From Candidatus Methanoplasma sp. (GTDB taxonomy: Archaea > Thermoplasmatota > Thermoplasmata > Methanomassiliicoccales > Methanomethylophilaceae): 64,000 nt of DNA. Positions 37,516-56,258 of this stretch are shown piece after piece (the first letter of the stretch is position 1; the number at the start of each line of letters is the position of its first letter). The translations under genes and the position numbers were made by a program. The DNA is taken from positions 97,472 to 161,471 of the forward strand of contig JAIRPP010000008.1 of assembly GCA_031256955.1 (NCBI GenBank), given 5' to 3'. Below the pieces are notes generated by a model. The model was not told the origin of the DNA. It was given only the letters and a program-made list of their open reading frames with translations, and made no database searches.

Positions 37516-40500
37516 TCACTTCGCGCGCATGGCCGCCTCTCTCCTCTTCCACATGGCTATGGAGAGGACCGCCAGCGCGATCACGGCGAGCGCGATCAGC
37601 GCGGCCGCCGCCAGCCCGCGCCAGGCGGGGTGGCCCATGCCTACCTCCTCCAGCTCGGCTATGAGCCCCACGCTGCCCGATTCGGACACGGTGAACTGGA
37701 TCTCGGCGCTCTCCGATTCCACCGTCCCCCTCCACTCGAGGAACCTGTATCCGCTGTCGGGGGTCACGCGGACCGATACGGTGTCCCCCCTGCTCATCGG
37801 CACGCGCTCGCCGTAGACGTACTTGACGTACGCCCCGCCGCCTATGCGGTACTCTATCGACCCCTTCTCGTCGGGGTTGGTGTGTATCACCATGAACGAC
37901 GAGTACGTCATGATCGACAGCACCTCTATGGAATGGTCGCCGCGGACGTTGCTGAACGTGTACGTCCCGCTTTCCGACGGGACGATGCTCGCCCCGTCCA
38001 CTATCACGTCGCGCAGCTCCCATCCCTCGCGGGGCGAGAACTCGAACGTCGCGTCCCTGCCCGCCCTGACGGACACGGAGCCGGACGGCGATATCGTCGA
38101 CCCCTGGTCGGACGAGGCCGTTATGGTGTACGTGACCACGGGATCCGACGGCCCCACGGGCGGCGGGGTGTACGTGGACTCCGCGCCGAACGACGCGGAC
38201 AGCGCATAATCGGACTCTATGGCGACGGAGAACGACGCCGGCTTGCCGGCCGCGTCCCCCGCCCATCCCTCGAAGCGGCTCCCGGCGGCCGCGACCGCCT
38301 CGAAGCAGACCGTCGCCCCCGCCTCCACCCATATCTCCCCGTCGACCGGGGAGGGCGAGAAGCCCTCCGGGCCCGCGGCCACGTAGCCCTGCCCCGTATG
38401 GGACACCGCGACCTTCTTGAGGTCCGAGCCCTGCGCGAAGACGGCGCGCACCGCGTACGAATCCCCGGATGCCCCGGCGAGCTCCATGGAATCCCCGAAC
38501 GAGACGGCCTGCCCGTCCGCGCTCGTGACGGAGAAGAACAGCAGGCGCTGGCCGCCGGGCGCGCCCTTCAGGGACAGCGCCTCGCCCGACCCGATCTCCA
38601 GCGACCATCCGTCTCCGGAGTACTTCCCGCTGACCCCGTTGCCGAGGCTGTACTCTATCTCCCCGCCGGAGGTCGACAGGAGCGCCTCGTACGGGTCCGC
38701 CCCGGAGAACCATACGGCGACCGAATGGCTGCCTCCGTTCGCGTCGTAGGTCTTGGACTGCACGGCCTCGACGGCGCCTCCCGACACGAACGCGTTGAAC
38801 CACCCGTTGGCCCTGCCGACGGTGACCACGGTGTCGGAGTCCATGTAGATCGCGCGGGACGGCTCCGATTCCGACGAGCGGAACCTGGCGGACCCGGGGA
38901 TCCCGGATATCTCTATGATGGCGTCCCCGTCCCCTATGGTGGAGACCTCCACGCGCTCCGCGGACGAGCCGTCGGTGAAGTAAGCGGTGGCCTCGCAGGG
39001 CGACCCCAGCCGCATGGATACGGAGTCCGACAGGTAGAAGTAGCGGTCGAGGCTCGTCTCGATCCCGACGAAGCGGCCCTCGCCGTCCCCCTCCCCGCCC
39101 AGGACCACCTTCTCGTGCGTATCGATCTGGACGACGTACTCCGCGCGCTCCCCGGAGGAGAACGCGAGGGATTTGCCCGTGCCCATGGAGTCCAGGCGGA
39201 GCGTGACGTAGCCGGACCCGACCGTCCTCAGCGCAAGGGCGTGCGTGCCGGCGGTCTTGGAGAAGGAGGCGGCTACGGAATGGCCGCCCGTCGTCGCGCC
39301 GCTGAAAGACAGGGACTCCATGGCGACGGGGTCCCCGTCGACCTCGAAGTACTGGAAGCGCCCGGACTGGGCTATCTCCACCGATTCGCCCGCGCTCAGG
39401 CGCAGGAGGTACGGCGAATCCCCGGCGCTCTCCACGGAGACCTCGCTCCCGGACCCTATCCTGAACGTCAGGCGGCCCAGGCCCTCCCTCGAGAGGCTGA
39501 GGCTGTACCCGCCGCCCGGCTCCGAGAAGGAGGCCGCCGCCAGGTACTCGGATCCCGCCGCGGGCGGGTCTATCCTGAACCCGGAGGCCCTGGGCTCCTG
39601 CGCCGATCCGTCGACGGATACGTCGAAGTAGCGGAACCCGCCGCCGTCCTCGGCGTAGCCTATGCGGGAGGCCCATTCCCGGGATACGGGCACCGTGAGG
39701 CGGTCGCCCGGGGACTGGCTCTTGTACGCCAGCGTCCCGTACTCGCCCAGCGTCAGGGTTATGCTCCCGGAGCCGGAGGTCCCCAGGACGACGTCGAACG
39801 TCTCGGACGGCGAGAAGACCGCCTCTATCCTGTGGCTCTGATGGCTGAGCGGGCCCGAGACGTCGCTCTCCAGGCGGACCCCCTCTCCGAAGAACTGGTA
39901 CCATACGAACGTGCCGTCGCGCATGGCCCTCTGCCCTATGGCTATGTCGGAGCCCCTGTCCACGAACAGGGTCTTGGAGTGGAACCCGGACGCCTCCCCC
40001 TCGGGGTCGCCGTCCACCCTGTACGTTATGGACCCGCCGAGCGTGGAGCTCAGCTCCACCGCGTAGGCGTCGCGCCCCGAGAAGCGCGCGGTCGCGCTAT
40101 GGGACGTGCCTGCCGCCACCTGCGAGGACGAGGTGGACACCGTCAGGGACGAACCGTCCGCCAGCCCGCCGTTGTAGATGAAGTACATGAAATGCCCGTC
40201 GCAGGACATCGCCCCGACCTTCAGGCCGGTGTTCACGTCCAGGACCAGATCGAGCCTGCTCCGGGATTCCCCGTCGCCGGCGCTGGAGTACTCGGCCCAC
40301 TCGTAGTTGCCTATCTTGTACTCTATGATGCCGGGGCCGATGGTGGACAGGTCCGCGGAATAGGAGGTCGAGGGGTCCGCGAAGTACGCGCTGACGCGGA
40401 CGTCGTAGGCGTTCCCGGGGGCGAGGGCTATCTCGCCCGCGCCCGGGACGGGGACGTAGTCCCTTATCAGGAACCGGAGCTGCGCCCCCTCCGCCCTGAC

Positions 40501-43500
40501 CGTCGCGGAATCCGCGCGGTTGAGGTGGATCGGGCGCTCGGTGGACCCCTTGTACCATATCGTCGGGTTGGGGTAGGCCCCGAAGGTCACCCCGATCCTC
40601 CCGTCGGTCATGACGGACCCGGCGACGCTCAGATAGAGGTCGTAGCTCTCGCCCGCCGTGAAGTGCGCATCCACGCGGCGGGACTCCCCCGCCGCCCCGG
40701 AGACCTCCACCCATTGGGTGGAGGGGTCGGAATACGTCACGGACCCGTCGGTCCTGGACGGCAGGAGGAACTGGAACAGCCCCGATCCCGTCTCCACCGG
40801 CTCGATCCTGACCGAGGTCCCGGCGTCGAATGGCATGGGCGGGACGTCCCCGCGGGATCCGTCCATCAGCGGCCTCCACGGGGCCGACACCAGGCGCACC
40901 GAGCCGTCGCCCGCGAACCCGAGCGCGACGGAGTACGTGTTCTTGGTGTACGTGAAGCTGGCGTAGACGTCGTGGTCCGCGCCGGCGACGCTCTCCTTTA
41001 TGAGGTGCTTCCCGTCGACGAACGGGGAATAGGCGTCGTTGTCTATGAGGTACTGGAGCTTCCCGGTGGATTCGGAGGGATAGAGCAGGACCCCCTTGCC
41101 GACGTCGATCGGTATGCGGCCCATGTAGCGGGGGGCCACGAACACCCTGTCGGGGTCGCCGTCCATGCTGAAGTGTATGAACCCGCCCCCGGAGACGTTG
41201 AGGTCTATGTAATAGACGGACGGGCCGCTGGTGAAGTATATCTCCACGTAGACGTCCGATCCGGGCGCCACCGTGCCCGCGGGCATCGCGTACGTCCCCG
41301 CCCCTCCCGTGGCGTAGCCGTCCATCCAGCTGCCGTTCCTGTCGACGATCCCCTGGAACCGCCCGTCGGCGTGCGCGACGGCGGTTATGGTCGCGTTGGA
41401 CCCGGCGTGCGCCTGCAGGGTGTACTCGCTGATCCCGGACGCCCTTCCCGCGCCGATGGGGCTGGAGAGGGTGCCATTGGAGAACGCCGCCTCCCCGTCG
41501 CCGTAGATCTTGACATGGAGCGTGAATATGTCTCCCGCGTACTCCTCCTCGAACACGGCGACCAGCTCGTGGTCGCCGTCGCCTGCGATGGAGACGGTCG
41601 CATCGTGCACGTCCGAGCCGTCCAGGCGGAACAGGACGAGGTTTCCGTAGCTTTCTCCCGCGGAGAAGCCGCTCCCGTCGTCCAGCCAGAACGCGCGCGG
41701 AGGCCCGCTGTACTGGCCCGCCGCGTAGCCTATGAGGCCTCCGAAGCTGAACTCCACGCTGCCTATCCCCTCGGTGGACACGTCCACCCTGTGAACAGAC
41801 GCGGGATCCTTCGCCGCGGTGAAGTGCGCCTTCACCTCGAAGGAGGACGCGCCCGCCTCGACGGAGTCCCTTATCTGGTCCGAGAGCCTCTGCGGGGATA
41901 TGGCGAGGATGTCGGTCCCCGCCGACTTCAGCCTGTAGGTCTGGAAGTATCCGTCCGAAGGCCCGGACTCGTCGTAGTCGAAGTGTATGGATTCGTGCGG
42001 ATCGATGTATAGGCTCCACGGGGAGCCGCGGTCCATCTCGGCCCACGGGTCCCCCCCTATCTGGAACCTCAGCGCCCCCGAACCCTCCACGGACATGTCC
42101 ACGAGGTACACCTCGTCGAACGTGTCGGTGAACAGGGCGCGGACGCGCTTGCCGTCATAGCTCGGGCCTGTCGCGAACCCGGTCACGCCGGGGGGCGAGG
42201 ACGCGTCTCCCTTGGCCACCGCGCTCCTCTCGCTCTGCCCCTCCGCCCAATCGAGGCGGAAATATTGGAAGTACCCGCCCGCCTCCAGCGCGTCCACCGC
42301 CATGGGCTTGTCGGAATCGGCGCAGATCTCGATCTCGGCCGCGTACCCGGAGTGCGACAGCCTGTTGCCCCACTGGTCCGTGACGACGATCTGCCCGCTG
42401 CCGGCGGAGCTGATGTATATTGAATACGTGTCGGCGGTCTCGGTGAAGTACGCCTTTGCGGAATGGCTCCCGGACCCGCTCACCCTGGCGGACGGGGCCC
42501 CCGGGAAGTCGAACGCGAACTCGCCGTCTAAGACCAGGTACTGGAAGCGGCAGCCGTCCTCGACGTAGCCCATCTCCACGGACTCGTCCGCGTCCATCGG
42601 TATGGCGCGGGAGGCCCCGGGAGACGGGCTGGAATACGCCCCGACCGGGCCGTCCCCGAATCTGAACGTTATCTGCCCCGCCCCCTCCGTGGCCAGGGTC
42701 AGGTAGTTGGGGCTGGCGGCTATGGCGAACGCCGCGTCTATCGAGAGGTATCCCGACAGCGACGACACGGGCACCGTGTCGCTCAGCACGACCGACGGCT
42801 CCGAGACGCCGTCGGAAACGGAGAAGTACTTGAAGTTGCCGCCGTAGCGGCCTATGACCGCGACGTCGTCATCGTCCATGGGCATGGCGCGGGGGACCTG
42901 CCCCCCGTACCTCACGGGGTCGCCGCCGTTGAGGCTCAGAGTGATGTATCCGGCGCCCGTCGCGGAGAGGTACAGGAACCCGTCGGCCTGGTCGGCGTAA
43001 TATATGTCCAAGACGTATTCGGTCCCCGCGGCCGAAGCCCCCCTGCTGAACCCGTCTCCCATGAAGTCGTTCTCGGGCTGCCCCCCGTCCGCGGTCAGGG
43101 AGGCGTATTGGAACTTGTGCAGTATGCTCTCGTAGGCGACGCTGAATGAAGAGTTCAGGTTGACGTACAGGTCCCTGGGCCCCTCCACACTCTCGTCCGG
43201 GTAGCTGGACGTGGAGAGGCGCGCGACCCCCGTCCCGTGGATCCTGACCTTGACGGCGTACACGTCGACCTTGTTGGCGGTGAACAGGGCCTGCACGAAG
43301 TGGTCCGCGTCGTCGTCCAGGGTCAGGGACGGCCCCGGGAAGGACTCGGCGTCGTCCAGGACGAACTGGCGGAAGTATCCCGCGTTCTCGCGCTGCGAGA
43401 GGACCGTCGCCACGCCCCTGTCCACCTTCAGGGCGTACTCGCCGGTGACCTCGAACGCCTCGGAGCCGCCCAGGGAGTACGTGGCGAAGCCGCTCTCGGT

Positions 43501-45096
43501 GGTCTGCATATCCACCGTGTATACGTCGCGCCCCTGCGTGAACCTGACCGTCAGCTCGTACGACCCCGACGCGCCGGGCGCGATCGAATAGGACCTCTCG
43601 TGCACGTACGACGCCGAGCCGTGCACCGCCTTCATGTTCTGGAAGAGGCCCGCCGCGTCCGCCGCCTCCACCGAGGCGGGGGAATCCCTGTCGACGCGCA
43701 GCCTCACCTCCTTGGACGGGGTCGCGTACAGGACCCCCCATCCGGGCACGCTCACTCCGGCGCGGCCGCCGCCCTCGACCTTCACGGAGAGCTCGTAGGT
43801 GTCCGCGGCCGAGGAGAAGTACGCCGCCTCGTCCCAATCCCGGTCTATGCCTTGGATCGATATCTCCCTGACGGGGTCGAAGACGTTCTCCGTGCCCGCG
43901 AACATGGAGTACCTGCCGGAGAGGTCGACGGCCGAGAGGGTTATGGAATCGCCCCTCGTGAGAAGCACCTTGTCGACCGACCCGGGGATGACTGGAGTGG
44001 CGGTGGGGAGGTCGTTGATCGAGATGTCCACGCGGCCGCCGACCGTGGCGGCGACCGTCACCGTGTGCGATTCGGAGGCCTTTGCGAAATACGCCTCCAT
44101 CTCCGTGTCGCCGCCGGCGGTCACGGCGACGTCCTCGTAGTCCCCTATCCCGAGCCACAGGCTGAACGCGTACCCCTGGCTCGCGACCGCCCTGACGTGG
44201 ACGCGGGTCCCGTCCAGGACGGTTATGCCTGATGCGGGGGAGTAGCTGTACCCCCCGTCGGTGGAGAACTCGAAGGATCCTCCCGAGGCGGGATGGGACG
44301 CGGCGGTTATGCGGGAGCCCTTGACGAAGCTCGCGGCCGCCTCCCTGTCCGCGTCCATCTTGAAGGTGGCGCGGGAGTCCTGAGAATTGTCGTATCTGGC
44401 GGCCCAGGAATCGAAGAGATACCCGGACTCCTCGTCCGCGGCGGGGGTGGCGCGGGCGTATATCCCGCCCGGGAGCAGGATCCCCGCGGACGGGTCGGAC
44501 GGCGCGTACGGGACGCCCTTGGCGATCCACGCGCCGTTGGTCACTGCGATGTCTAGAAGGAACGCCCCCGAGCCCGCGGGGGACTCGGTGAGCTTCAAGC
44601 GGTGAGAAGACTGGTCGGAGAACACCGCGCACACGGTGGAGTCGTCGTCCAGGATGAGCTCTCCGGAAACGGGCGACTGCGCCCATCCGAGCCCCGTGGC
44701 CCACAAGGAGAAGGAGTATGATTCGGCGGAGGATGCCGCTATGGTTACCTTGGAGCCTCTCGGCAGCTCTACGGGGCCCTCGTATGCGAAGGCCCCCGCT
44801 ACGCCCGCGACGGAGTATTCGAACGATCCCGAGCCCTCGGGGACGGCGATTATCTTCAGCGTCCTTTTTTCGGACGCGGCGCCTATGAAATCTGACAGGC
44901 CCGCGGCGCCGGCTGACGGAGAGCCCTGGCCCGGCGGATCGGTCGCATCGCCCGCGCCCGCCGAGAGCGCGAGCCCCAGCGCGGATACCGCGAGCAGAGC
45001 CATGGCTATTATCAGCACGTTGCCTTTAGAAAGAGCGGAGAGCGGGCCCAGCCTGCTTTCCGCGTCCCTCCTCCCCCTGATGGAGCGACCTACCAC
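37516..45096 (-). CDS. Giant (2526 aa) repeat surface protein, N-terminal signal/TM and C-terminal TM anchor
   Basis: About two dozen degenerate 85-105 aa repeats (pattern '[ST]xGxGxIxF...G.FQYF...A.F'); last modules like InlB B-repeats ('ASSDQGSTISPSG', 'SGYRFLEWRG'); C-term 'GLAAAALIALAVIALAVLSIAMWKRR'. Confidence 0.85.
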   Translation of the reverse strand: MVGRSIRGRRDAESRLGPLSALSKGNVLIIAMALLAVSALGLALSAGAGDATDPPGQGSPSAGAAGLSDFIGAASEKRTLKIIAVPEGSGSFEYSVAGVAGAFAYEGPVELPRGSKVTIAASSAESYSFSLWATGLGWAQSPVSGELILDDDSTVCAVFSDQSSHRLKLTESPAGSGAFLLDIAVTNGAWIAKGVPYAPSDPSAGILLPGGIYARATPAADEESGYLFDSWAARYDNSQDSRATFKMDADREAAASFVKGSRITAASHPASGGSFEFSTDGGYSYSPASGITVLDGTRVHVRAVASQGYAFSLWLGIGDYEDVAVTAGGDTEMEAYFAKASESHTVTVAATVGGRVDISINDLPTATPVIPGSVDKVLLTRGDSITLSAVDLSGRYSMFAGTENVFDPVREISIQGIDRDWDEAAYFSSAADTYELSVKVEGGGRAGVSVPGWGVLYATPSKEVRLRVDRDSPASVEAADAAGLFQNMKAVHGSASYVHERSYSIAPGASGSYELTVRFTQGRDVYTVDMQTTESGFATYSLGGSEAFEVTGEYALKVDRGVATVLSQRENAGYFRQFVLDDAESFPGPSLTLDDDADHFVQALFTANKVDVYAVKVRIHGTGVARLSTSSYPDESVEGPRDLYVNLNSSFSVAYESILHKFQYASLTADGGQPENDFMGDGFSRGASAAGTEYVLDIYYADQADGFLYLSATGAGYITLSLNGGDPVRYGGQVPRAMPMDDDDVAVIGRYGGNFKYFSVSDGVSEPSVVLSDTVPVSSLSGYLSIDAAFAIAASPNYLTLATEGAGQITFRFGDGPVGAYSSPSPGASRAIPMDADESVEMGYVEDGCRFQYLVLDGEFAFDFPGAPSARVSGSGSHSAKAYFTETADTYSIYISSAGSGQIVVTDQWGNRLSHSGYAAEIEICADSDKPMAVDALEAGGYFQYFRLDWAEGQSERSAVAKGDASSPPGVTGFATGPSYDGKRVRALFTDTFDEVYLVDMSVEGSGALRFQIGGDPWAEMDRGSPWSLYIDPHESIHFDYDESGPSDGYFQTYRLKSAGTDILAISPQRLSDQIRDSVEAGASSFEVKAHFTAAKDPASVHRVDVSTEGIGSVEFSFGGLIGYAAGQYSGPPRAFWLDDGSGFSAGESYGNLVLFRLDGSDVHDATVSIAGDGDHELVAVFEEEYAGDIFTLHVKIYGDGEAAFSNGTLSSPIGAGRASGISEYTLQAHAGSNATITAVAHADGRFQGIVDRNGSWMDGYATGGAGTYAMPAGTVAPGSDVYVEIYFTSGPSVYYIDLNVSGGGFIHFSMDGDPDRVFVAPRYMGRIPIDVGKGVLLYPSESTGKLQYLIDNDAYSPFVDGKHLIKESVAGADHDVYASFTYTKNTYSVALGFAGDGSVRLVSAPWRPLMDGSRGDVPPMPFDAGTSVRIEPVETGSGLFQFLLPSRTDGSVTYSDPSTQWVEVSGAAGESRRVDAHFTAGESYDLYLSVAGSVMTDGRIGVTFGAYPNPTIWYKGSTERPIHLNRADSATVRAEGAQLRFLIRDYVPVPGAGEIALAPGNAYDVRVSAYFADPSTSYSADLSTIGPGIIEYKIGNYEWAEYSSAGDGESRSRLDLVLDVNTGLKVGAMSCDGHFMYFIYNGGLADGSSLTVSTSSSQVAAGTSHSATARFSGRDAYAVELSSTLGGSITYRVDGDPEGEASGFHSKTLFVDRGSDIAIGQRAMRDGTFVWYQFFGEGVRLESDVSGPLSHQSHRIEAVFSPSETFDVVLGTSGSGSITLTLGEYGTLAYKSQSPGDRLTVPVSREWASRIGYAEDGGGFRYFDVSVDGSAQEPRASGFRIDPPAAGSEYLAAASFSEPGGGYSLSLSREGLGRLTFRIGSGSEVSVESAGDSPYLLRLSAGESVEIAQSGRFQYFEVDGDPVAMESLSFSGATTGGHSVAASFSKTAGTHALALRTVGSGYVTLRLDSMGTGKSLAFSSGERAEYVVQIDTHEKVVLGGEGDGEGRFVGIETSLDRYFYLSDSVSMRLGSPCEATAYFTDGSSAERVEVSTIGDGDAIIEISGIPGSARFRSSESEPSRAIYMDSDTVVTVGRANGWFNAFVSGGAVEAVQSKTYDANGGSHSVAVWFSGADPYEALLSTSGGEIEYSLGNGVSGKYSGDGWSLEIGSGEALSLKGAPGGQRLLFFSVTSADGQAVSFGDSMELAGASGDSYAVRAVFAQGSDLKKVAVSHTGQGYVAAGPEGFSPSPVDGEIWVEAGATVCFEAVAAAGSRFEGWAGDAAGKPASFSVAIESDYALSASFGAESTYTPPPVGPSDPVVTYTITASSDQGSTISPSGSVSVRAGRDATFEFSPREGWELRDVIVDGASIVPSESGTYTFSNVRGDHSIEVLSIMTYSSFMVIHTNPDEKGSIEYRIGGGAYVKYVYGERVPMSRGDTVSVRVTPDSGYRFLEWRGTVESESAEIQFTVSESGSVGLIAELEEVGMGHPAWRGLAAAALIALAVIALAVLSIAMWKRREAAMRAK

Positions 45097-45225: not shown

Positions 45226-46617
45226 TCAGGGGGGGCGGGGGGCCGCGAGGCCCCTCTCCAGGACCTCCCCCTTGTCCACGAGGACGACGCTCCCGTCTCC
45301 CGAGAGGCTGTCGTCGAACCCGGAGACGGAGAACAGCCCGAACCTCACGTCGTACCCGTCTAGCTCCCCGACCGACGCCGCCTTCCTCCTGAGATCGTCG
45401 AGGGCGCGGCGGCCCACGGGCCTGTCCCTATGGTACGCGCACTCGGCGACGAACGCCTTCCTCTCCTCCATATTCAGCGCGACCACGCCTATCTCCATAT
45501 CCCTGTTCCAATATCTCCCGACCCTCTCCGGTGCGAACCCGATGCGCTCGCCCATGCGCCCGGCCAGATCCCTGCAGATCGATTCGAACGCCGGCTGGAC
45601 GTGATCCTCCGCGAAGCGCTCGTCGAACCGGGCCATCGCCCCGCCCGCGTCCCCCAGGGAGAGCTCGGACAGGTGCGGGGAGGCGAAGCGGAGCCAGAAG
45701 AGGGAGAACGCGTCGATTATCTCGTACGACCCTGTCTTGCTCTTCTCGGGGAGCCTCTCCGTGACGGGGACCTCCCTGTTCACGAGGCGCATGTCCGCGA
45801 GCCTCTTGAGGTACGGGGTGACTGTGGTGGCCGGGATCCCGGCGGCGGACGATATGGAGGATATCCTGTCGCGGCCCCCCGCCATCGCGCCCAATATGGA
45901 CATGTACGCCGCCGGCTCCCTGACCTCGCCCCTCAGGAGGGACACGGACGCGTCGAACAGGATCGATCCGGGATCCATGACGTTCGCCTCCACGTTCTCC
46001 CTCAGCGTGGCGCGGTCGAAGCGGGCCATGCGCCCCGGGACCCCTCCGTGGACCGAGTACTCCTCCACGGCGTCCGCATAGCCCCTGCCCCTGCGGGCCT
46101 CCTCGAAGGAGAGCGGGCGCAGCTCGATGCGCTTGTCGAACCTGCCGCACATGGGGCTGTCGTGCCTCTTGTCCACGGAATCCATCCCAGACACGTCGGA
46201 CCCGCACAGGATCAGCATGACGTTTTCGGAAGACAGGGATCCGTCCCATATGCCCTGGAGCCGCGAGAGGAAGGATCTGCTCGAGCGGAACATGTTCTGG
46301 AACTCGTCGATGACCAGGACTTTCTTCCCCTCTCTGGAATCGCAGAAGGCGGAGAAGGCCCTCTTCCAGCCGTCGAATCTGGCCCCCTCCCTGCCTGCGT
46401 ACCTGGACACCGCTTCGGAGAAGCGGGAGAGCAGCATCGGCTCGGTGTGCTCGGAGGCGTAGAAGTACAGCGCGTCCTTGTCGGCTATGAATTCCGTGAT
46501 GAGCCTCGTCTTGCCGACCCCGCGCCTGCCCGTGATCAGGACGAGGGAGCTCTTCTTAGAATACTCCCGGTTAAGGGCCTTCATCTCGAAAGACCTGCCT
46601 ATGAATCCGGGAGCCAT
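45226..46617 (-). CDS. Archaeal-type ATPase with DUF234-like C-terminus (degenerate nuclease motif)
   Basis: 'VLITGRRGVGKTRLITEFIADKDALYFYASE'; 'MEIGVVALNMEERKAFVAECAYH'. Confidence 0.85.
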   Translation of the reverse strand: MAPGFIGRSFEMKALNREYSKKSSLVLITGRRGVGKTRLITEFIADKDALYFYASEHTEPMLLSRFSEAVSRYAGREGARFDGWKRAFSAFCDSREGKKVLVIDEFQNMFRSSRSFLSRLQGIWDGSLSSENVMLILCGSDVSGMDSVDKRHDSPMCGRFDKRIELRPLSFEEARRGRGYADAVEEYSVHGGVPGRMARFDRATLRENVEANVMDPGSILFDASVSLLRGEVREPAAYMSILGAMAGGRDRISSISSAAGIPATTVTPYLKRLADMRLVNREVPVTERLPEKSKTGSYEIIDAFSLFWLRFASPHLSELSLGDAGGAMARFDERFAEDHVQPAFESICRDLAGRMGERIGFAPERVGRYWNRDMEIGVVALNMEERKAFVAECAYHRDRPVGRRALDDLRRKAASVGELDGYDVRFGLFSVSGFDDSLSGDGSVVLVDKGEVLERGLAAPRPP

Positions 46618-46647
46618 GCGCTTCAGATGAGGCGTGGCTATTTAATT

Positions 46648-46690
46648 ATTATCTAAATAATTAATAAATATTATCTTAATTATTATAAGT
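46648..46690. promoter_or_regulatory. ATTATCT(A/T)AA(T/-)ATT-type repeats, period 22 bp, upstream of ATPase
   Basis: ATTATC at 46648 and 46670 in an AT-rich divergent promoter. Confidence 0.45.
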
Positions 46691-46891
46691 TTTCTTATTA
46701 TAATTTTCATTATATTGGCGTCTGTAGAGACCCATCGCATGGACCCAGCGCGTGCCCGCGGCGAGCCGACGGCGCTGAAATCGTAAGAAGCGGATCCAGG
46801 CGGCGCCTCGCGGGCCTTGGCACAATTGAATTATAGGCATGGGGCGATCCAGGCGCGTGCCGGGCGCAGCCCGGCGGGAGAGGGCAGGGAC

Positions 46892-49800
46892 ATGGAGTTC
46901 GCAGACGTTTTGGAGAAGTACCGCATCGAGTCCCGCTCCGAGAGGGACAAGGGGGCGAGGTTCGAGGAGCTGATGGCCAGGTATTTCATGACCGATCCCG
47001 CGTACTCCTCCCGCATAGAGCATTGCTGGACGTGGATGGGCTTCCACGCCCGCGGCGAGTTCGGAGGGCGCGACATAGGCATAGACCTCGTCGCCAAGAC
47101 CAGGGACGGGGAGTACTGGGCGATCCAATGCAAGCTGTACGCCGAGGGGCACACGGTGTCCAAGGCGGACGTGGACACGTTCCTGGCCACCTCGGGAAAG
47201 AGGTTCCGCGACGAGGGCGGAAGGGAGACGGGGTTCTCGCACTGCCTCATAGTGGCCACCACCGATTCCTGGAGCGCGAACGCGAGGGAGGTCTCCGAGA
47301 ACCGCTCCGTGCCCGTCCAATTCATAGGCAGGAGCATACTGGAGGGGGCGCAGGTCGACTGGGGGCTGATGGAGGAGGGGGTCCACGGGCGCGAGGCGAG
47401 GACCGCGAAGCACGAGCTCCGCCCGCACCAGAGGGAGGCGGTGGACAGGGCGCTCGCACACTACTCGATTCGCGACAGGGGGACCATGGTCATGGCCTGC
47501 GGGACCGGGAAGACGTTCGCATCGCTGAAGATAGCCGAAGCCCTCGCCGGAGGGGGGGGGGGCGGAGGGGACTCGGGCCCGAGGGGCGGGTGCGTCCTGT
47601 TCCTGGCCCCGTCCATATCCCTCGTCGGGCAGACGCTGAGGGAGTGGGCCTCTAACTCCGACTTCGTTTTGAACCCCATATGCGTCTGCTCGGACCCCGG
47701 AGTGTCCAAGAAGCGCACGGAAACGGACTTCGGCGAGAGGATAGAGGACCTCGGGATGCCCGCCACCACCGATCCGAAGAGGATCGCGGAGCAGCACGGG
47801 CGCGGGGAGGGGCTGACCGTGGTGTTCTCCACGTACCAGTCCCTGGACGCGGTGGCCGCGGCGCAGGCGATGGGGCTCCCCGAATTCAGCCTGGCGGTGT
47901 GCGACGAGGCCCACAGGACCACCGGCAAGATAATCGAGGGCGAGGACGAGAGCAGCTTCACGAAGATCCACAGCGACTCATCCGTCCGCGCCCGGAAGAG
48001 GCTGTACATGACCGCCACCCCGAGGATATACGGGGTCAAGGGGAAGGAGGACGCTAGGAAGGCCTCCGCGAGCAAGTCCGTCACGGTCGCCCTCTGCTCC
48101 ATGGACGACGAGGAGATCTACGGGGGGGAGTTCTACAACCTGTCCTTCGGGAAGGCGGTGGAGATGGGGCTGCTGTCCGACTACAAGGTGCTGATCCTGA
48201 CCGCCATGGACACGGACGTGCCCGAGCCCATAAGGAGGCAATGGGGCGGCGGCAAGGACATAGACGTGGATTCGGGCTGCAAGATCTGGGGGACCCTCAG
48301 CGCGCTGGCGAAGATCATAGCCAACGACGACTCGGTAAGAGCGGAGGACCCGGGGCCGATGAGGTCCGCGGTGTCGTTCTGCCGCACCATCAGCGATTCG
48401 AAGAGGTACGCGGAGAGGTTCAACGAGATCGCGAAGGCGAGCGGGAGCCCCATCGCGCTGGAGATGAGGCACATAGACGGCGGGATGAACGCGATGGCGC
48501 GCGACGGGCTCATGGGCTGGCTCAAAGGGGGCGGCGAGGGGTGCCGCGCGCTGACGAACGTGAGGTGCCTGAGCGAGGGCGTGGACGTGCCCGCCCTGGA
48601 CGCGGTGGTCTTCATGAGCTCCAAGGGCTCGCTGGTGGACGTGGTCCAGTCTGTGGGCAGGGTCATGAGGAGATCGGAAGGGAAGAGGTTCGGATACGTG
48701 GTGATACCCATAGTCGTGGAGGAGGGGCGGGACGCGGAGGAGGCCCTGGACGACAACAAGATGTACAAGGAGGTCTGGCAGGTCCTGCGCGCGCTCAGGT
48801 CCCACGACGAGAGGATCGAGGCGGAGATCAACGCGATCCAGTACAGGACGGACAACGCGGGCGGGCGCATACGCATAGGCAGGGCCGGCGGGGGCGGGGA
48901 GTGGGGGGGAGACCGCCCATGGGCGCGGGACGGGCAGTGGACGCTGGACGACTTCTCCGGGAAGCTGTACGCGAAGCTGGTCCTGAAGGTCGGGGACAGG
49001 GAGTACATAAGGAGCTGGATGAGCCAGATCTCCGAGGTCATGCCGTCCCTGATCGAAAAGCTGGAGGGGCTGTGCAAGGGGGCGAAGGGGGCAGCGTTCA
49101 AGGAGTACATGGCCGGGCTCAGGTCGTGCGTCAACTACGGCGTGTCCGAGAAAGACGGGATAAACATGCTGGCCCAGCAGATAGTCACCGAGCCCATATT
49201 CGACAGGCTGTTCGGGTCCGACGGGTTCTCGGCGCAGAACCCGGTGTCCAGGACGATCAAGGCCATGCTGGACGGCCTGGGCGGGGAGAGCCTGGGGGAG
49301 ATAGAGAAGGCGCTGGAGAGCTTCCACAGGAGCGTGGAGGACACGCTGGGCAGGATAGACACCGCCCAGGGCAAGCAGAAGGTCGTGACGGAGCTGTACG
49401 AGGGGTTCTTCAAGAAGGCCTTCGGGAAGGACCAGCAGATCAACGGCGTGGTGTACACCCCGCAGGAGATAGTCGACTTCATAATCAGGTCCGCGTCAGA
49501 CGCGCTGAGGAGGGAGTTCGGCATAGACGTGAACGACGCGGGGGTGAACGTGCTCGACCCGTTCACGGGGACGGGGACGTTCATAGCCAGGCTCATAGAG
49601 TCGGGGGCGATATCCAAGGAGAGCCTGGAGAGGAAGTACAGGGAGGAGCTGTTCGCCAACGAGATCACCCTGCTGGCGTACTACATAGCCGCGGTGAACA
49701 TAGAGAACGCCTACGCGGGCGCGATGGGGCTCGGGCAGGGGGAGTACGTTCCGTTCGAGAACATAGTGCTGACGGACACGTTCAACATAGAGGAGATATG

Positions 49801-51727
49801 CAGGCAGAAGACGAGCCAGGCCAGCCTCCTGAGCGACGACGAGGTCCCGTTCAAGATCAACAGGGACAAGATCGTGAGAGGGCGCAAGAAGCCCATCACG
49901 CTGATCGTCGGGAATCCGCCGTATGGCGCCAATCAGAAGTCCGCAAACGATGACGCAAAGAGAAAAAGATATGAGAACGGAGTCGACGGGAGGATAAGGG
50001 AGACTTATCTCGATAAGGATCTGTTCACAGAGACCGTGAAAAATGTCAACTCCACGCACGACGGCTATGTCCGCGCCTTCAGATGGTCCACTGACCGCAT
50101 AGGAGACAGCGACGGGGCGATCGCGTTCGTCACCCCCAGCGGATGGCTCAGCGGAAGCGCGTTCATAGGGTTCCGCAAGTGCATCGAGTCGGAGTTCTCT
50201 AAGATCTATATCTTGGACCTCAGGGGAGATGCGACTACGCAAGGGGAAGCGAGGAGGAAAGAGGGAGATGGCGTATTTGGAGACGGCTCTAGGACAGCCA
50301 TCACCATAACGCTCTTGATCAAAAGGAAAGGCTTCAAAGGCAAAGCCAAGATCAGATACTACAAGGTCGCAGACCGCATGAAGAGGGGGCAGAAGCTGGA
50401 TCTCCTCGGACGGCTGGACACGTTCGGCGACATGGAGAAGAGCGGGCTGATGGAGGCTCTAGATCCGAAAGAGAACGGAGACTGGATCATCCAGAGGAAA
50501 GAAGGATTTCAAAAGCTCATTCCCCTCGCTGGAGACAGCGGCAAGAGATTCGACAAGCATGTGGAAAACACTCTGTTCTCAGGATATACGCGCGGATATT
50601 GTACGTCTAGAGATTCCTGGGCATACAATTTCTCCAAAATGAATCTCAACAACATCAAATTGGGATTAGTGGAAGGATTTAACGAGCAGATAAAATCGGG
50701 CAAGATGGATTTCGGAGACTCTAGAGTTAAATGGACCGCGCCGCTGAGGAAAACATTCGACGGAAAGAAGACCCTGTCTCTGGACTCCTCCACCCTCTGC
50801 ATCGCAGCATACAGACCGTTCACAAAAATGTTTTTCGACAACGATCCGAATCTGAATGAGAGATCGTACCAGATGCCTCGCCTGTTCCCCACGCCAGACG
50901 CTGAGAATCTGGTCATCTGTATCTCCAGCATCGGAGACAAGAAGGATTTCTCCTGCCTAATAGTAGATCTGGTGGCCGATCTACACATAACTGGATCCAC
51001 ACAGTGTCTTCCGCTCTATTGGTACGACAACCTGGGCGAGCTTCGCGCCAAGCGGAAGCAGAAGAGCCTCGACGATTCCGAGTCCATAGTGAGGCACGAC
51101 GGGATCAGCGACTACGCCCTGAGGCTGTTCCGCGAGAGGTACGGCGGAGACGTTGCGAAGGAGGACGTCTTCTTCTACGTCTACGGATACCTCCATTCCC
51201 CCGAATACAGGGAGGCGTACGCGGAAGACCTGAAGCTGTCCCTCCCCAGGATCGGGCTGGTCGGATCGGGGGAGGACTTCTGGGCGTTCTCCAGGGCGGG
51301 GAGGGCTCTCGCCGACCTGCACCTGAACTATGAAAGGGTCGATCCCCCGGAGAGCCTGGTCTTCTCGGGGAGCGTCGGGATAGAGGACGCGCTGGGAGAC
51401 GATGGGAAGGGATTCTGCCGCGTGACCAAGATGAAGCTGTCCCCGGAAGAGAGGAGTCTCGTATACAACCAGCACATAACGATCGAGAACATACCGGAGG
51501 AGGCGTTCGAGTACAAGGTCAACGGGCGCGCGGCGCTCGGATGGATCGTTGACCAGTACCAATGCTCCACGGACAAGTACTCAGGGATCGTGAACGACCC
51601 GAACGAATACGCTGGCGGAAGGTACGTGCTGAAGCTCGCCCTGTCGGTTATCGGAGTGAGCGTGAAGACGATGGAGATCGTGAAAAATATGCCGAGGTTG
51701 GATTTTGATCCTGACCTCGATAGTTAA
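46892..51727 (+). CDS. Single-polypeptide restriction-modification enzyme (Type ISP-like: Mrr-like nuclease + SF2 helicase + N6-adenine methylase + TRD)
   Basis: 'GGRDIGIDLVAKTRDGEYWAIQCKLY'; 'MACGTGKTFASLKIAEAL', 'VCDEAHRT'; 'DPFTGTGTFIARLI' and 'NPPYGANQKS'. Start MEFADVLEKY. Confidence 0.9.
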   Translation: MEFADVLEKYRIESRSERDKGARFEELMARYFMTDPAYSSRIEHCWTWMGFHARGEFGGRDIGIDLVAKTRDGEYWAIQCKLYAEGHTVSKADVDTFLATSGKRFRDEGGRETGFSHCLIVATTDSWSANAREVSENRSVPVQFIGRSILEGAQVDWGLMEEGVHGREARTAKHELRPHQREAVDRALAHYSIRDRGTMVMACGTGKTFASLKIAEALAGGGGGGGDSGPRGGCVLFLAPSISLVGQTLREWASNSDFVLNPICVCSDPGVSKKRTETDFGERIEDLGMPATTDPKRIAEQHGRGEGLTVVFSTYQSLDAVAAAQAMGLPEFSLAVCDEAHRTTGKIIEGEDESSFTKIHSDSSVRARKRLYMTATPRIYGVKGKEDARKASASKSVTVALCSMDDEEIYGGEFYNLSFGKAVEMGLLSDYKVLILTAMDTDVPEPIRRQWGGGKDIDVDSGCKIWGTLSALAKIIANDDSVRAEDPGPMRSAVSFCRTISDSKRYAERFNEIAKASGSPIALEMRHIDGGMNAMARDGLMGWLKGGGEGCRALTNVRCLSEGVDVPALDAVVFMSSKGSLVDVVQSVGRVMRRSEGKRFGYVVIPIVVEEGRDAEEALDDNKMYKEVWQVLRALRSHDERIEAEINAIQYRTDNAGGRIRIGRAGGGGEWGGDRPWARDGQWTLDDFSGKLYAKLVLKVGDREYIRSWMSQISEVMPSLIEKLEGLCKGAKGAAFKEYMAGLRSCVNYGVSEKDGINMLAQQIVTEPIFDRLFGSDGFSAQNPVSRTIKAMLDGLGGESLGEIEKALESFHRSVEDTLGRIDTAQGKQKVVTELYEGFFKKAFGKDQQINGVVYTPQEIVDFIIRSASDALRREFGIDVNDAGVNVLDPFTGTGTFIARLIESGAISKESLERKYREELFANEITLLAYYIAAVNIENAYAGAMGLGQGEYVPFENIVLTDTFNIEEICRQKTSQASLLSDDEVPFKINRDKIVRGRKKPITLIVGNPPYGANQKSANDDAKRKRYENGVDGRIRETYLDKDLFTETVKNVNSTHDGYVRAFRWSTDRIGDSDGAIAFVTPSGWLSGSAFIGFRKCIESEFSKIYILDLRGDATTQGEARRKEGDGVFGDGSRTAITITLLIKRKGFKGKAKIRYYKVADRMKRGQKLDLLGRLDTFGDMEKSGLMEALDPKENGDWIIQRKEGFQKLIPLAGDSGKRFDKHVENTLFSGYTRGYCTSRDSWAYNFSKMNLNNIKLGLVEGFNEQIKSGKMDFGDSRVKWTAPLRKTFDGKKTLSLDSSTLCIAAYRPFTKMFFDNDPNLNERSYQMPRLFPTPDAENLVICISSIGDKKDFSCLIVDLVADLHITGSTQCLPLYWYDNLGELRAKRKQKSLDDSESIVRHDGISDYALRLFRERYGGDVAKEDVFFYVYGYLHSPEYREAYAEDLKLSLPRIGLVGSGEDFWAFSRAGRALADLHLNYERVDPPESLVFSGSVGIEDALGDDGKGFCRVTKMKLSPEERSLVYNQHITIENIPEEAFEYKVNGRAALGWIVDQYQCSTDKYSGIVNDPNEYAGGRYVLKLALSVIGVSVKTMEIVKNMPRLDFDPDLDS
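47552..47562 (+). repeat. 11-bp poly-G tract inside the R-M coding sequence
   Basis: 'gccgga ggggggggggg cggagggg' encodes AGGGGGGGD just after Walker A. Confidence 0.9.
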
Positions 51728-51791
51728 TCGGGTTTTTGTAGGGGCGGATCGCACCATGCTGAAAGCAGGAAGAGTCTCAGCGGGATTGGAT

Positions 51792-53027
51792 TTATGAAAC
51801 CCGACCTCGCCGCCGCTCCGTCAGGAAATCTATGACGTTCGCGATCCTGATCCCGTCGATGTTCTTGACCGGATACCTGTCCAGCGTCACGACCGTCTTC
51901 GGATGGTTGTCCCTTATCGCCCTCAGCGCCCCCAGCTCCCTCTCCCTCGTCTTCGCGTCCGCGATGCTCACGGCGACCTGGAAGTACCTTATGTCGTCTC
52001 CGTCGACCGACATGAAGTCCACCTCCCTCCCTCCGACGGACAGCACGGACGCGTTCCCGTGCCTGTGCATCAGCTCCATGAACACTATGTTCTCCAGGAT
52101 CCCGTCCATGTCCCCGTCGCGGAGGCCTATCCTCTCGTTCCTGACCCCTATGTCGCTCGCGTAGTATTTGTCCGATGTGCGGAGGTACTCCTTCGCCTCT
52201 GCGTCGAACCTCTTCGCCCTGTAGAAAAGGAACGCCGACTCCAGGAGCCCGATGTATCCGTCCACCGTCTCCGCGGAGGTCTTGATCCCCTTGCTCCCCA
52301 GATACCCCACGATGTTCTTCACCGAGGTTCTGTCACCTATGTTCTTCATGAGGAAGCGCGACACGTTCGACAGGAGCGCGGCGTTCCTGACTTCGCTCCT
52401 CTCGATCACGTCCTTCTCGTACACCGTGGCGTACGTCCCCGACAGCACCATCGACGCCAGGTCCCTCCTCTCCCCCGCCATGACCGCTATCGCCGGGAGC
52501 CCCCCGTATCTGACGTACTCGTCGAACTTGGACTCCACGCCCGCCTCCGGCCCGTACGTCTCCCTGAACAGGAGGTACTCTCCGAAAGTCAGGGGATAGA
52601 CTGGGATCTCGATGCACCTGCCCGAGAGCCTGGTCGCTATCTCCGACGAGAGCATCTTCGAATTGGATCCCGTGACGTACACGTCCGCGCCGGAGATGCG
52701 GAGCGATTCTATCGCCCTCTCCCATTCGGGGACGTTCTGAACCTCGTCTATGAAGACGTACGTCCCCTTCTCGGGTCTCATATGGCTTTTCACCGCCTCC
52801 ATCAGCTGGGGGCTCGTCTCTATCGCCTTTTCGGTTTCGTCGTCCAGATTGGCGTAGAATATCTTTTCCGGAGGTACGCCGGAAGACGCGACCTCGTCTC
52901 TGAACATCTCCATGAGCGTTGATTTCCCGCATCTCCTCATGCCCGTTATCGCTTTTATAACGGGAATCTCACGGGCAGATCGGAGCATGTCCAGGTAGTG
53001 GTCTCTCGGGATTCGTACATCTTTCAT
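51792..53027 (-). CDS. AAA_14/DUF4143-like ATPase (ITGMRRCGKS subfamily)
   Basis: 'AITGMRRCGKSTLMEMFRDEV', 'YVFIDEVQNVPEWERAIESL', 'EVDFMSVDGDDIRYFQVAVSI'. Confidence 0.88.
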   Translation of the reverse strand: MKDVRIPRDHYLDMLRSAREIPVIKAITGMRRCGKSTLMEMFRDEVASSGVPPEKIFYANLDDETEKAIETSPQLMEAVKSHMRPEKGTYVFIDEVQNVPEWERAIESLRISGADVYVTGSNSKMLSSEIATRLSGRCIEIPVYPLTFGEYLLFRETYGPEAGVESKFDEYVRYGGLPAIAVMAGERRDLASMVLSGTYATVYEKDVIERSEVRNAALLSNVSRFLMKNIGDRTSVKNIVGYLGSKGIKTSAETVDGYIGLLESAFLFYRAKRFDAEAKEYLRTSDKYYASDIGVRNERIGLRDGDMDGILENIVFMELMHRHGNASVLSVGGREVDFMSVDGDDIRYFQVAVSIADAKTRERELGALRAIRDNHPKTVVTLDRYPVKNIDGIRIANVIDFLTERRRGRVS

Positions 53028-53035
53028 TATATTCT

Positions 53036-53092
53036 AAAGTATAGTTGATATAGTATATAAATAAATCATATTTAATCAAAGTATAATTTGAT
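53036..53092. promoter_or_regulatory. AAAGTATAnTTGAT direct repeats (42 bp apart) incl. palindrome ATCAAA-gtataa-TTTGAT
   Basis: 53036-53049 and 53078-53092, flanking the minus-strand TATA-like element. Confidence 0.6.
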
Positions 53093-53224
53093 CTTTTTAC
53101 CTTACTTCATCTCTAGTTCCCGTGTTCGCACACGCGTCGCGGAGCGTTTTGCAAAGGAAGAGCGATGGATCGTCTTCACCCCGCGAACACGATGCCGTCT
53201 ACTGAATCAACATCACGGTAAGGA

Positions 53225-53270
53225 GTGAAACATTGCCAAAGTCGGAAGTGAAACATTGCCAAAGTCGGAA
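53225..53270. repeat. 23-bp exact tandem repeat GTGAAACATTGCCAAAGTCGGAA x2
   Basis: 53225-53247 and 53248-53270, abutting 'attaataatatatt' and ATPase start at 53303. Confidence 0.92.
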
Positions 53271-53302
53271 ATTAATAATATATTTCAAAACATCTGGAAC
53301 AT

Positions 53303-54568
53303 ATGGGCAAAACTTATTTCAAAAGGGTCATAGACAGCCATATCAAAAAGCTCCTCAGATCGTCTGGAGCCGTACTGATTGAGGGACCCAAATGGTGCGG
53401 CAAGACCCGCACCGCCAGAGAGATCGCCGCCAGCGCCGTTTTCATGCAGGATCCGCAAAAGGGGCCAGCCTACCGGAAATCCGCGGAAGTTATGCCGTCG
53501 AGCCTTCTGGAAGGCCCGACCCCCAGGCTCATCGACGAGTGGCAGATCGCGCCCGTGCTGTGGGACGCCGTCAGGTTCGAAGTCGACGAGCGCGGAGAAA
53601 TGGGGCAGTTCATATTGACGGGGTCCGCCGTTCCGGGCGACGACAAAGCCCGCCATTCGGGCACCGGCAGGATCTCTCGCGCGCTCATGAGGCCCATGAG
53701 CCTGTTCGAGTCCATGGAGTCCAACGGATGCGTTTCGCTGAGGTCTCTGTTCGACGGCGCAGCCGACGTGCGCGGCGAATCGAGCCTGTCCATCAGAGAC
53801 CTCGCCTTCGCGCTGGTCCGCGGGGGATGGCCTGGAGCGGTCGGCATGAGCGGGGACGACGCGCTCGGGCAGATCAGGAACTATGTCGAGGCGACGGTCA
53901 ACGCAGACGTTTCCGAAGTGGACGGGGTCAGGAGGAACCCCGCCGCCGTGCGCGAGCTCATGAGGTCCATATCTAGGAACGTATCCTCTCCCGCCAACAT
54001 GTCCACGATAAGGGGCGACATGTCGGGAGACGGCGGCGCCGTGTCCGATAAGACCGTCTCGGCGTATATGAACGCCCTCAGGCGCATCTACGTGGTCGAA
54101 GACCTCCCCGCGTGGAACCCCAGCCTGCGCTCGAAGACCGCCGTGCGCTCCTCGCCCAAGAGGCACTTCGTGGACCCCTCCATAGCGGCCGCTTCCCTGC
54201 GCATATCCGACAAGGGGCTGATGCAGGACTTCGACACGTTCGGGCTGATGTTCGAATCCCTCTGCGTGAGGGACCTGAGGGTGTACGCCCAAGCCCTGGA
54301 CGGAGACGTGTACCACTATCGCGACCGCAACGGCCTGGAGGCGGACGCGGTGGTGCACCTGAGGGACGGCAGATGGGGGGCGATAGAGGTCAAGATGGGG
54401 TCGAGGGAGATAGAGGAGGCCGCGGCGAACCTGATAAAGCTGAGGGACATGGTCGATGCGGAGAGGTCCGGGGCGCCGTCCTTCCTGATGGTTCTGACCG
54501 CGGAGGACCGCGCGTACAGGCGCGCGGACGGGGTCCTGTCGGTCCCGATAGGGTGCCTCAGAGACTGA
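53303..54568 (+). CDS. AAA_14/DUF4143-like ATPase (GPKWCGKT subfamily)
   Basis: 'AVLIEGPKWCGKTRTAREIAAS', 'RLIDEWQIAPVLWDAVR', 'EADAVVHLRDGRWGAIEVKMG'. Confidence 0.88.
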   Translation: MGKTYFKRVIDSHIKKLLRSSGAVLIEGPKWCGKTRTAREIAASAVFMQDPQKGPAYRKSAEVMPSSLLEGPTPRLIDEWQIAPVLWDAVRFEVDERGEMGQFILTGSAVPGDDKARHSGTGRISRALMRPMSLFESMESNGCVSLRSLFDGAADVRGESSLSIRDLAFALVRGGWPGAVGMSGDDALGQIRNYVEATVNADVSEVDGVRRNPAAVRELMRSISRNVSSPANMSTIRGDMSGDGGAVSDKTVSAYMNALRRIYVVEDLPAWNPSLRSKTAVRSSPKRHFVDPSIAAASLRISDKGLMQDFDTFGLMFESLCVRDLRVYAQALDGDVYHYRDRNGLEADAVVHLRDGRWGAIEVKMGSREIEEAAANLIKLRDMVDAERSGAPSFLMVLTAEDRAYRRADGVLSVPIGCLRD

Positions 54569-56252
54569 CGCCTCGGAGGCCGCTCCCGGGCGCGTCGAGC
54601 CTCTCCGACGCGATGCACGGGGTCTTCCCGTGGAACGCGACCCCGTACGCGAGCGTCGGGCCATCCAGCCCGTGGGCGTAGCGCTTGTCCTTTATCTGCC
54701 TGAGCGCGGCCTCCGCCGCTTCGCGGAGCGATTCTGCGCCCCTCCCGGCGGACCTTTTGATCTCTATGACTATGTTCGGGCCGCTCCCCCTCTTGCGCCG
54801 GAGCATTATATCGTAGTACCCGTCGCCGTTCTCGTAGTCCGCCTTCACCTCGTATCTGCCAGATAGGTGCATCAATGCGCCGACCAGGAACGCCTGGTAC
54901 GCGTGCTCGCTGTCCAGCACGCGGGAGCTCACGACCCTGGACAGTAGGGACCCGATGCATTCGCACATGGAATCCTGATCGCCCTCGGACACGGCGTACG
55001 CCAGAGCCCTGAGGCCGTCCGCCACCGCGTCGCTGGCCGCGTGCCTCGAGACGAGGTCCGCGAACACGGAGTACAGCTCCGCGTTAGGGATGGACAGCCT
55101 GTGCAGCGCTCCTTCCGGGACCGCTTTGAGGTAGCCGGACACGGCCATCATGGAGTATATCGCTCCCGCGTCGTCGCCCAGGTCGGAATAGGTCACGTGC
55201 GCCTTCACCCCTGTGGCGAAGCTCTCTCCGGAGCCCAGAAGCCCGAGGTTGTCCAGAGTCTCCTGATCCGACCTGGATAGAAGGTCCGCTATTATCGAGT
55301 TCCCGCTAGTGTTCGCCCAGTACGGCGCGGGCCTGAACCCGCTGTCCGCATAGCTGAGGATGCTCCAGGGGTTGTATATCTCCGCGTTGCCGAACCGGTA
55401 TCCGTCATACCATTCCCTCGCCTCTTCGAACTTGTCCGGGCGGCCGTATTCGTCGCAGATCCTCCTGACCTCCGGCTCGGTGAAGCCGTACATCTCGTCG
55501 AAGTCCGCGCTGAGGATGTTGTTGACTTTCAGATTGTTGAGCCCGCTGAATATGCTCTCCTTCGCCATCTGCAGGACCCCCGTGACCACCGCCAGCTGGA
55601 GGGACCCGCTCCCTTTGAGGGCGGACGACAGGAGCGTCCTCATGAACCTCGTCACGTCTCCCTGGACCTCCGTGCCGTATGCGCCCTGCATGGGGCTGTC
55701 GTATTCGTCGACGAGTATGACCGCGGGGGCGCCGTGATGCGCGCGGAGCATATCGCTCAACATAGCCAGGGAGTTCTCCAGATCGACCTCCCCCGCTTCT
55801 GACCCTGCGATGCTCGCATAGATCTCCCTGTCCCTCCTGTCCGTCTTCTCGCTGCCTTCGAGATACGAGAACGGCCTGTACGCGCGCCTGATCCTCTCCC
55901 CCATGGACGCGAGGAAGTTCTCGCGGCAGCCGAGATTGAGGTCTTTGAAATCGATTGATATCACGGGAAACGCGTTCCTGTATCCGTCGAACTCGCTGTG
56001 GCTCGAGATCTCCAGGCCGTCGAACCACCTGTTCCCCTTGTATTCGAGGTTCAGGAACGCGTCGATCATGCTGAGGTTGACCGACTTTCCGAAGCGACGC
56101 GGCCTTGTGTATAAATAGACCCCGCGATCGTTGCTTTTCAGGATCCGGCCTATGAGCATGCTCTTGTCCACGAAGTATTTGTCCCCTTCGCGGATGACCT
56201 TGAAATCCTGGATGCCGATCGGGATCTGCTTCACGGTCGCGTATCTCCGCAT
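54558..56252 (-). CDS. AAA-ATPase-like / PDDEXK_9 (DUF1703-type) protein
   Basis: 'IPIGIQDFKVIREGDKYFVDKSMLIGRIL...YTRPRRFGKSVNLSMIDAF'; 'YDIMLRRKRGSGPNIVIEIKRS'. Confidence 0.9.
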   Translation of the reverse strand: MRRYATVKQIPIGIQDFKVIREGDKYFVDKSMLIGRILKSNDRGVYLYTRPRRFGKSVNLSMIDAFLNLEYKGNRWFDGLEISSHSEFDGYRNAFPVISIDFKDLNLGCRENFLASMGERIRRAYRPFSYLEGSEKTDRRDREIYASIAGSEAGEVDLENSLAMLSDMLRAHHGAPAVILVDEYDSPMQGAYGTEVQGDVTRFMRTLLSSALKGSGSLQLAVVTGVLQMAKESIFSGLNNLKVNNILSADFDEMYGFTEPEVRRICDEYGRPDKFEEAREWYDGYRFGNAEIYNPWSILSYADSGFRPAPYWANTSGNSIIADLLSRSDQETLDNLGLLGSGESFATGVKAHVTYSDLGDDAGAIYSMMAVSGYLKAVPEGALHRLSIPNAELYSVFADLVSRHAASDAVADGLRALAYAVSEGDQDSMCECIGSLLSRVVSSRVLDSEHAYQAFLVGALMHLSGRYEVKADYENGDGYYDIMLRRKRGSGPNIVIEIKRSAGRGAESLREAAEAALRQIKDKRYAHGLDGPTLAYGVAFHGKTPCIASERLDAPGSGLRGVSL

Positions 56253-56258
56253 AGCCCA

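Follow-up and report, generated by a model that had tools for sequence, protein, structure and literature searches.

A guanine tract in an archaeal Type ISP restriction-modification gene as a probable slippage switch within a genome-wide set of tracts

Can a homopolymer turn a restriction-modification (R-M) gene on and off in an archaeon? The question is raised by a run of eleven guanines (G11) inside a Type ISP R-M gene of Candidatus Methanoplasma sp., in a stretch of 64,000 nucleotides referred to here as the window (contig JAIRPP010000008.1, positions 97,472 to 161,471, equal to C14:97472-161471 of its genome, G000). An earlier reading of the letters, hereafter the original prediction, had proposed the tract as a candidate phase-variable switch. 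The homopolymer was found exactly where it had been placed, on the plus strand and in frame within the coding sequence (CDS) 46892-51727. Our results suggest that G11 is very probably a contingency (phase-variation) switch operating by replication slippage, and that it is part of a genome-wide set. The features on which this reading turns are the following.

47552..47562, plus strand: G11 homopolymer, candidate slippage switch; in frame at lengths 8, 11 and 14, otherwise truncated
46892..51727, plus strand: Type ISP restriction-modification gene, in frame (ON) in the assembly; open frame, Pfam, PADLOC and LlaBIII match
47552..47581, plus strand: low-confidence loop with the Gly run (residues 221-230); AlphaFold2, predicted local distance difference test (pLDDT) score below 50

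The consequence of a slip is severe. The frame is open only when the tract has 8, 11 or 14 G, and G9, G10, G12 and G13 lead to a stop after 248-254 amino acids, so that a change of one unit shifts the frame and truncates the product, as had been foreseen for a slip of one base. The tract lies within the codons of a Gly7 run (residues 220-226), which it had been said to encode for the most part; it accounts for four of the seven codons (GGG GGG GGG GG-C). It had also been placed directly after the Walker A motif, and it does follow that motif, although about 12 residues past GTGKT, beyond the Walker A helix and not adjoining it.

G11 is long enough to slip and lies outside the normal length distribution. 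After it, the longest G or C runs of the window have 7 bases (13 of G7 and 7 of C7), in agreement with the earlier remark that other G runs were of about this length. Beyond the window, the host genome was covered by pattern searches and by stretches amounting to about 1.02 of 1.56 Mb, regions around tracts included; genes were called with a simple codon-bias script, and the length distributions describe a sample in which tract regions are overrepresented, with the exception of the list of tracts of at least 10, which is full. In genes, coding-strand G runs numbered 201 at length 7, 6 at length 8, none at length 9 and 6 at lengths 10-14. A naive codon shuffle of this GC-rich genome (0.88 Mb of genes) gave an expectation of about 24 coding-strand G runs of at least 10, so composition by itself makes a run of 11 not improbable, and a simple composition test was rejected as proof of a switch because long runs are predicted by the shuffle alone. 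The same shuffle predicted 155 coding-strand runs of 8-9, of which 6 were found. Runs of this length have been purged from genes, and the few coding runs of 10-14 therefore stand out. The numbers in real genes drop sharply at 7 and a separate mode follows at 10-14, which makes G11 an outlier from the real distribution.

The same site carries other repeats in related species. A protein search across 102 family genomes added two members of the genus whose gene spans it, G015 and G003. In G015 the loop holds G13, which is out of frame (a length of 11 or 14 would restore the frame), and in G003 it holds (AG)18 in place of the G tract, also out of frame and encoding an Arg-Glu run. A slippery repeat is therefore present at this loop in all three genus species covering the site, in frame as G11 and shifted as G13 and (AG)18, and these differences in length, unit and frame, seen between species and not between strains, support the proposed switch. 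Outside the genus but within the order, eight homologues from seven genomes cover the loop (G098, G031, G345, G346, G352, G021 with two copies, and G023); in these it is short and no repeat was found. G003 and G015 group as sisters with support 1.0 in a tree built on residues 310-1200, and the pair is joined by G000 with support 0.83, indicating that the kind of repeat at the site has changed within the clade. Beyond the repeat, the frame of the shifted orthologues is open for 1000-1300 codons with no stop. The (AG)18 is the only (AG)10-or-longer array in the 1.6 Mb genome of G003, and the only other long AG array among 17 genus genomes is found in G009, upstream of a surface protein gene. This AG/CT array (L149, G009:C158, from locus position 1074) lies just upstream of the gene, which is on the minus strand. 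Gene fragments in G001, G002, G005 and G037 are remnants that are uninformative on the site, and a frame break in G031 was ruled out as a repeat, being a run of N.

These loops also bear on the idea that the Gly-rich segment is a structural linker kept for protein function, with the DNA repeat incidental. Gly is encoded here in a flexible loop of the translocase domain, as a linker would have it. However, the homologue loops are short and without Gly, G003 has an Arg-Glu run, LlaBIII has no Gly run, and neither pure GGG codons nor out-of-frame alleles fit such a role. We give this explanation almost no credence.

A further case comes from Methanomicrobium mobile BP, a cultured isolate of a different order, whose homologue carries (AG)14 out of frame. 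This repeat falls at query residue ~305, in another loop of the model, between helix 295-304 and strand 308-314. The frame beyond it is open for 1328 codons, and it is the only (AG)7-or-longer array in the 1.7 Mb genome. The probability that both unique AG arrays, those of G003 and M. mobile, fall in one gene family by chance is about 1e-5. The gene is present in 6 of the 232 genomes of this order; it is intact and without repeats in G129 and G208, while that of G145 is broken without a repeat and was rejected as a repeat case. In G143, the specificity region contains a frame-shifting G9, but the gene also carries another frameshift and a stop.

Recoding, through programmed ribosomal frameshifting or transcriptional slippage, might also yield full and truncated protein in a constant ratio from any allele. 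Homopolymers can drive such events, and the poly-A runs of magnesium chelatase genes, archaeal ones included, are a precedent, with 10-63% frameshifting in E. coli tests (PMC3711429). However, the G and AG repeats share no slippery heptamer, the required shift varies by allele, and the genome-wide tract set would be left unexplained. Recoding in place of switching is very unlikely.

That genome-wide set is substantial. The host genome contains 37 G tracts of at least 10, forming a separate length mode with a gap at 8-9. G/C runs in the 1.02 Mb numbered 307 at length 7, 11 at length 8 and 4 at length 9, followed by 13 at length 10, 11 at length 11, 6 at length 12, 3 each at lengths 13 and 14, and 1 at length 16. 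Twelve tracts of 9-14 link a start to a gene body, five in frame and seven shifted, and the G is always on the coding strand. The in-frame genes code for the Type ISP enzyme, three BspA-type leucine-rich repeat (LRR) surface proteins and a 1120-amino-acid List_Bact-repeat protein. The shifted genes code for two BspA-type paralogues, a transglutaminase-like surface protein, a 1241-amino-acid List_Bact-repeat protein, a GT87 glycosyltransferase, a PycTM-type Pycsar effector and one unassigned protein. This mixture of in-frame and shifted genes in one genome further backs the switch that had been proposed for G11.

LRR_5 (BspA-type) genes hold 5 of the 12 tracts and make up about 37 of an assumed 1600 genes (P ~4e-6). 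Two near-identical BspA-type paralogues carry G9 (C14:82313-82321, minus strand) and G11 (C5:93538-93548) at the same position, and both would be in frame at G10. The PycTM gene, a second defence gene with a tract in this genome, is split out of frame by a G11 between profile positions 38 and 45 (C16:198642-198652; L083:8643-8653, minus strand). A G12 near the start of the GT87 gene (C13:50150-50161) is also out of frame; a second tract, at C13:51615, precedes the gene next to it, and its leader peptide is similar. No Pfam match was obtained at C8:76475, where a winged-helix label was given by eye only. Intergenic tracts were seen at C14:13796, 204374, 251409, 313555, 319231, 319355 and other places, some of them 25-125 bases from a gene start. 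Across the genomes of the family, tract load varies widely and is highest in this genus.

Several tracts are within a few hundred bases of contig ends (C2:29, C3:32690, C9:441, C10:30337, C11:425, C15:33545 and C15:33705), and some of these are accompanied by duplicated N-terminal sequences. Since contigs end near G tracts, further tract genes have probably been cut by the assembly. Such positions in C2, C3, C9, C10, C11 and C15, and the predominance of metagenome assemblies among the genomes compared, would suit an explanation by assembly or sequencing error, in which out-of-frame lengths are homopolymer-calling artefacts. Yet an AG array is no homopolymer, the M. mobile BP genome is that of a cultured isolate, and errors create neither a separate mode at 10-16 nor a placement of tracts at gene starts. 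Artefact is highly improbable as the source of the pattern.

Other points weigh against slippage as a switch. Repeat differences were compared between species only. Homopolymers in metagenome assemblies can be off by one, and the G13 of G015 could be a G14, in frame. The gene of G143 may simply be decaying. In addition, roughly two in three of the long G tracts fall between genes, where changes in length may be neutral. This last observation also speaks for a neutral microsatellite, in which poor slip repair leads to long G runs, one of them in a Gly-tolerant loop, and the gene tolerates it or loses its function. Intergenic runs of at least 10 are enriched (27 found versus about 2 expected), NucS mismatch endonuclease was found in none of 17 genus genomes by a search whose control detects NucS in other archaea, and decayed gene remnants occur in G001, G002 and G037. 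The NucS result also counts in favor of the switch. However, coding G runs are purged beyond 7, and yet three species have repeats of two units in the same loop, with another elsewhere in the gene of M. mobile; the long open frames past the repeat in the shifted orthologues are likewise unexpected for a long-dead gene. A neutral origin is unlikely. Taking both sides together, we favor the contingency switch. Length change of the tract in natural populations, synthesis of both the complete and the shortened protein, and a benefit from the variation are inferred.

The architecture of the enzyme indicates what such a switch would control. The CDS codes for 1611 amino acids from ATG, or 1636 from an upstream TTG, with the Pfam domain order Mrr_cat_2, ResIII, ISP_coupler, N6_Mtase and Type_ISP_C, i.e., nuclease, superfamily 2 (SF2) translocase, coupler, N6-adenine methylase and specificity domain in one polypeptide. 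It matched the solved Type ISP enzymes LlaBIII (4xqk; full-length, residues 5-1604) and LlaGI (5ffj), and the best PADLOC model was PDLC03597 (a Type IIG class; 1693 bits, residues 2-1605). Judged by architecture, the gene product is a Type ISP enzyme; the five domains and the full-length LlaBIII match bear out the Type ISP-like label of the original prediction. Its domains are located as follows.

46991..47377, plus strand: Mrr_cat_2 nuclease domain (residues 34-162); Pfam 1.9e-37
47411..48025, plus strand: ResIII / SF2 translocase domain (residues 174-378), interrupted by the tract; Pfam 1e-19
47495..47515, plus strand: Walker A motif ACGTGKT (residues 202-208); 14-sequence alignment
49004..49372, plus strand: ISP coupler domain (residues 705-827), lost in OFF frames; Pfam 3.1e-24
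49379..49978, plus strand: N6 adenine methyltransferase domain (residues 830-1029), lost in OFF frames; Pfam 1.6e-06
50573..51613, plus strand: Type ISP C-terminal specificity domain (residues 1228-1574), lost in OFF frames; Pfam 2.2e-92

The nuclease is the sole complete catalytic domain upstream of G11. All positions of the Walker A motif except T205 are invariant in the 14-sequence alignment. In the AlphaFold2 model, which covers residues 1-680 (mean pLDDT 76.6), the Gly-run loop (221-230) lies between the Walker A helix (207-219) and a strand (234-239), and its length varies across homologues; this tolerant setting speaks for the switch. The gene is flanked in window 45226-57752 by ATPase genes (DUF234, two AAA_14/DUF4143, and AAA-ATPase_like with PDDEXK_9) and by an AlbA_2 Schlafen-type gene, and close to it, at window 37516-45096 on the minus strand, is a gene for a 2526-amino-acid repetitive surface-type protein with an InlB-like repeat domain.

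Under the proposed mechanism, slipped-strand mispairing in replication would cause the tract to gain or lose one or two G. Lengths of 8, 11 and 14 would give the full Type ISP enzyme, while others would stop translation at about 250 amino acids, leaving the nuclease complete but most of the translocase, and all of the methyltransferase and specificity domains, untranslated. The domain map suggests that nuclease, translocase and methylase would be switched jointly; since all activities reside in one polypeptide, restriction and modification would stop together. A population would then be a mix of restricting and non-restricting cells, which may hedge virus defence against DNA uptake or self-restriction. 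G11 would be one of many such switches in the genome, mostly in surface proteins.

The host itself appears to be a methanogen. A complete archaeal small-subunit (SSU) rRNA gene on the host contig (C14:184668-186137) establishes that the contig is archaeal, and C5 carries the pyrrolysine insertion elements of methylamine methyltransferases. These points of sequence point to a methylotrophic methanogen of the Methanomassiliicoccales type. The 88%-complete assembly yielded no mcrA gene, and the case for methanogeny is therefore made by the archaeal SSU together with the pyrrolysine elements of the methylamine methyltransferase genes.

Among known enzymes, LlaBIII and LlaGI have the same domain order and match the sequence over its full length. 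They are plasmid-borne enzymes of Lactococcus, whereas the present gene is on an archaeal chromosome, and LlaBIII lacks a Gly run at the aligned loop. H. pylori and Campylobacter are known to switch restriction-methylation enzymes through homopolymers. The poly-G Type IIG enzymes of these bacteria (JHP1272 / HP1353-HP1354) are similar to the present one in being single-polypeptide restriction-methylation enzymes with a homopolymer ON/OFF switch (PMC3936762), but they are bacterial and without a translocase domain, and in JHP1272 the tract codes for prolines within or close to the target-recognition region instead of a translocase loop. The H. pylori locus HP0667-HP0669 is also a Type ISP gene and is frameshift-inactivated in sequenced strains; unlike the tract described here, its frameshifts were stated not to be repeat-based (PMC3936762). 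Bacterial methylome switches likewise use repeat slippage to turn a methyltransferase on and off, but with separate subunits. At the level of the genome, the phasomes of Neisseria, Campylobacter and Helicobacter also comprise many tract genes in mixed ON/OFF states, mostly for surface proteins, glycosyltransferases and R-M systems. The present set differs in two ways: it belongs to an archaeon, and its tracts typically sit close to the N-terminal membrane segment, on one side of it or the other, in BspA-like and List_Bact-repeat proteins.

Slippage-driven phase variation has so far been described almost entirely from bacteria. The tracts reported from 18 scanned archaeal genomes were mainly of A and T (PMC2831843), a 2025 review left open its spread to archaea (PMC11868660), and a survey of archaeal R-M named phase-variable systems only when citing bacterial work (PMC10609329). 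The open-access papers searched yielded no account of repeat-switched Type ISP genes or of a repeat-based phasome in an archaeon, an absence that is not proof. We consider it likely that a full phasome of the bacterial kind has evolved in methanogenic archaea of animal guts, with surface proteins, glycosylation, a cyclic-nucleotide defence effector and Type ISP R-M under the control of replication slippage, and that repeats in Type ISP genes were gained more than once, in different loops. M. mobile BP can be cultured, which makes the switch open to direct test. If the reading holds, gut methanogens would vary their surface and defence in the manner of host-adapted bacteria, and archaeal methylomes and virus resistance would differ among sister cells.
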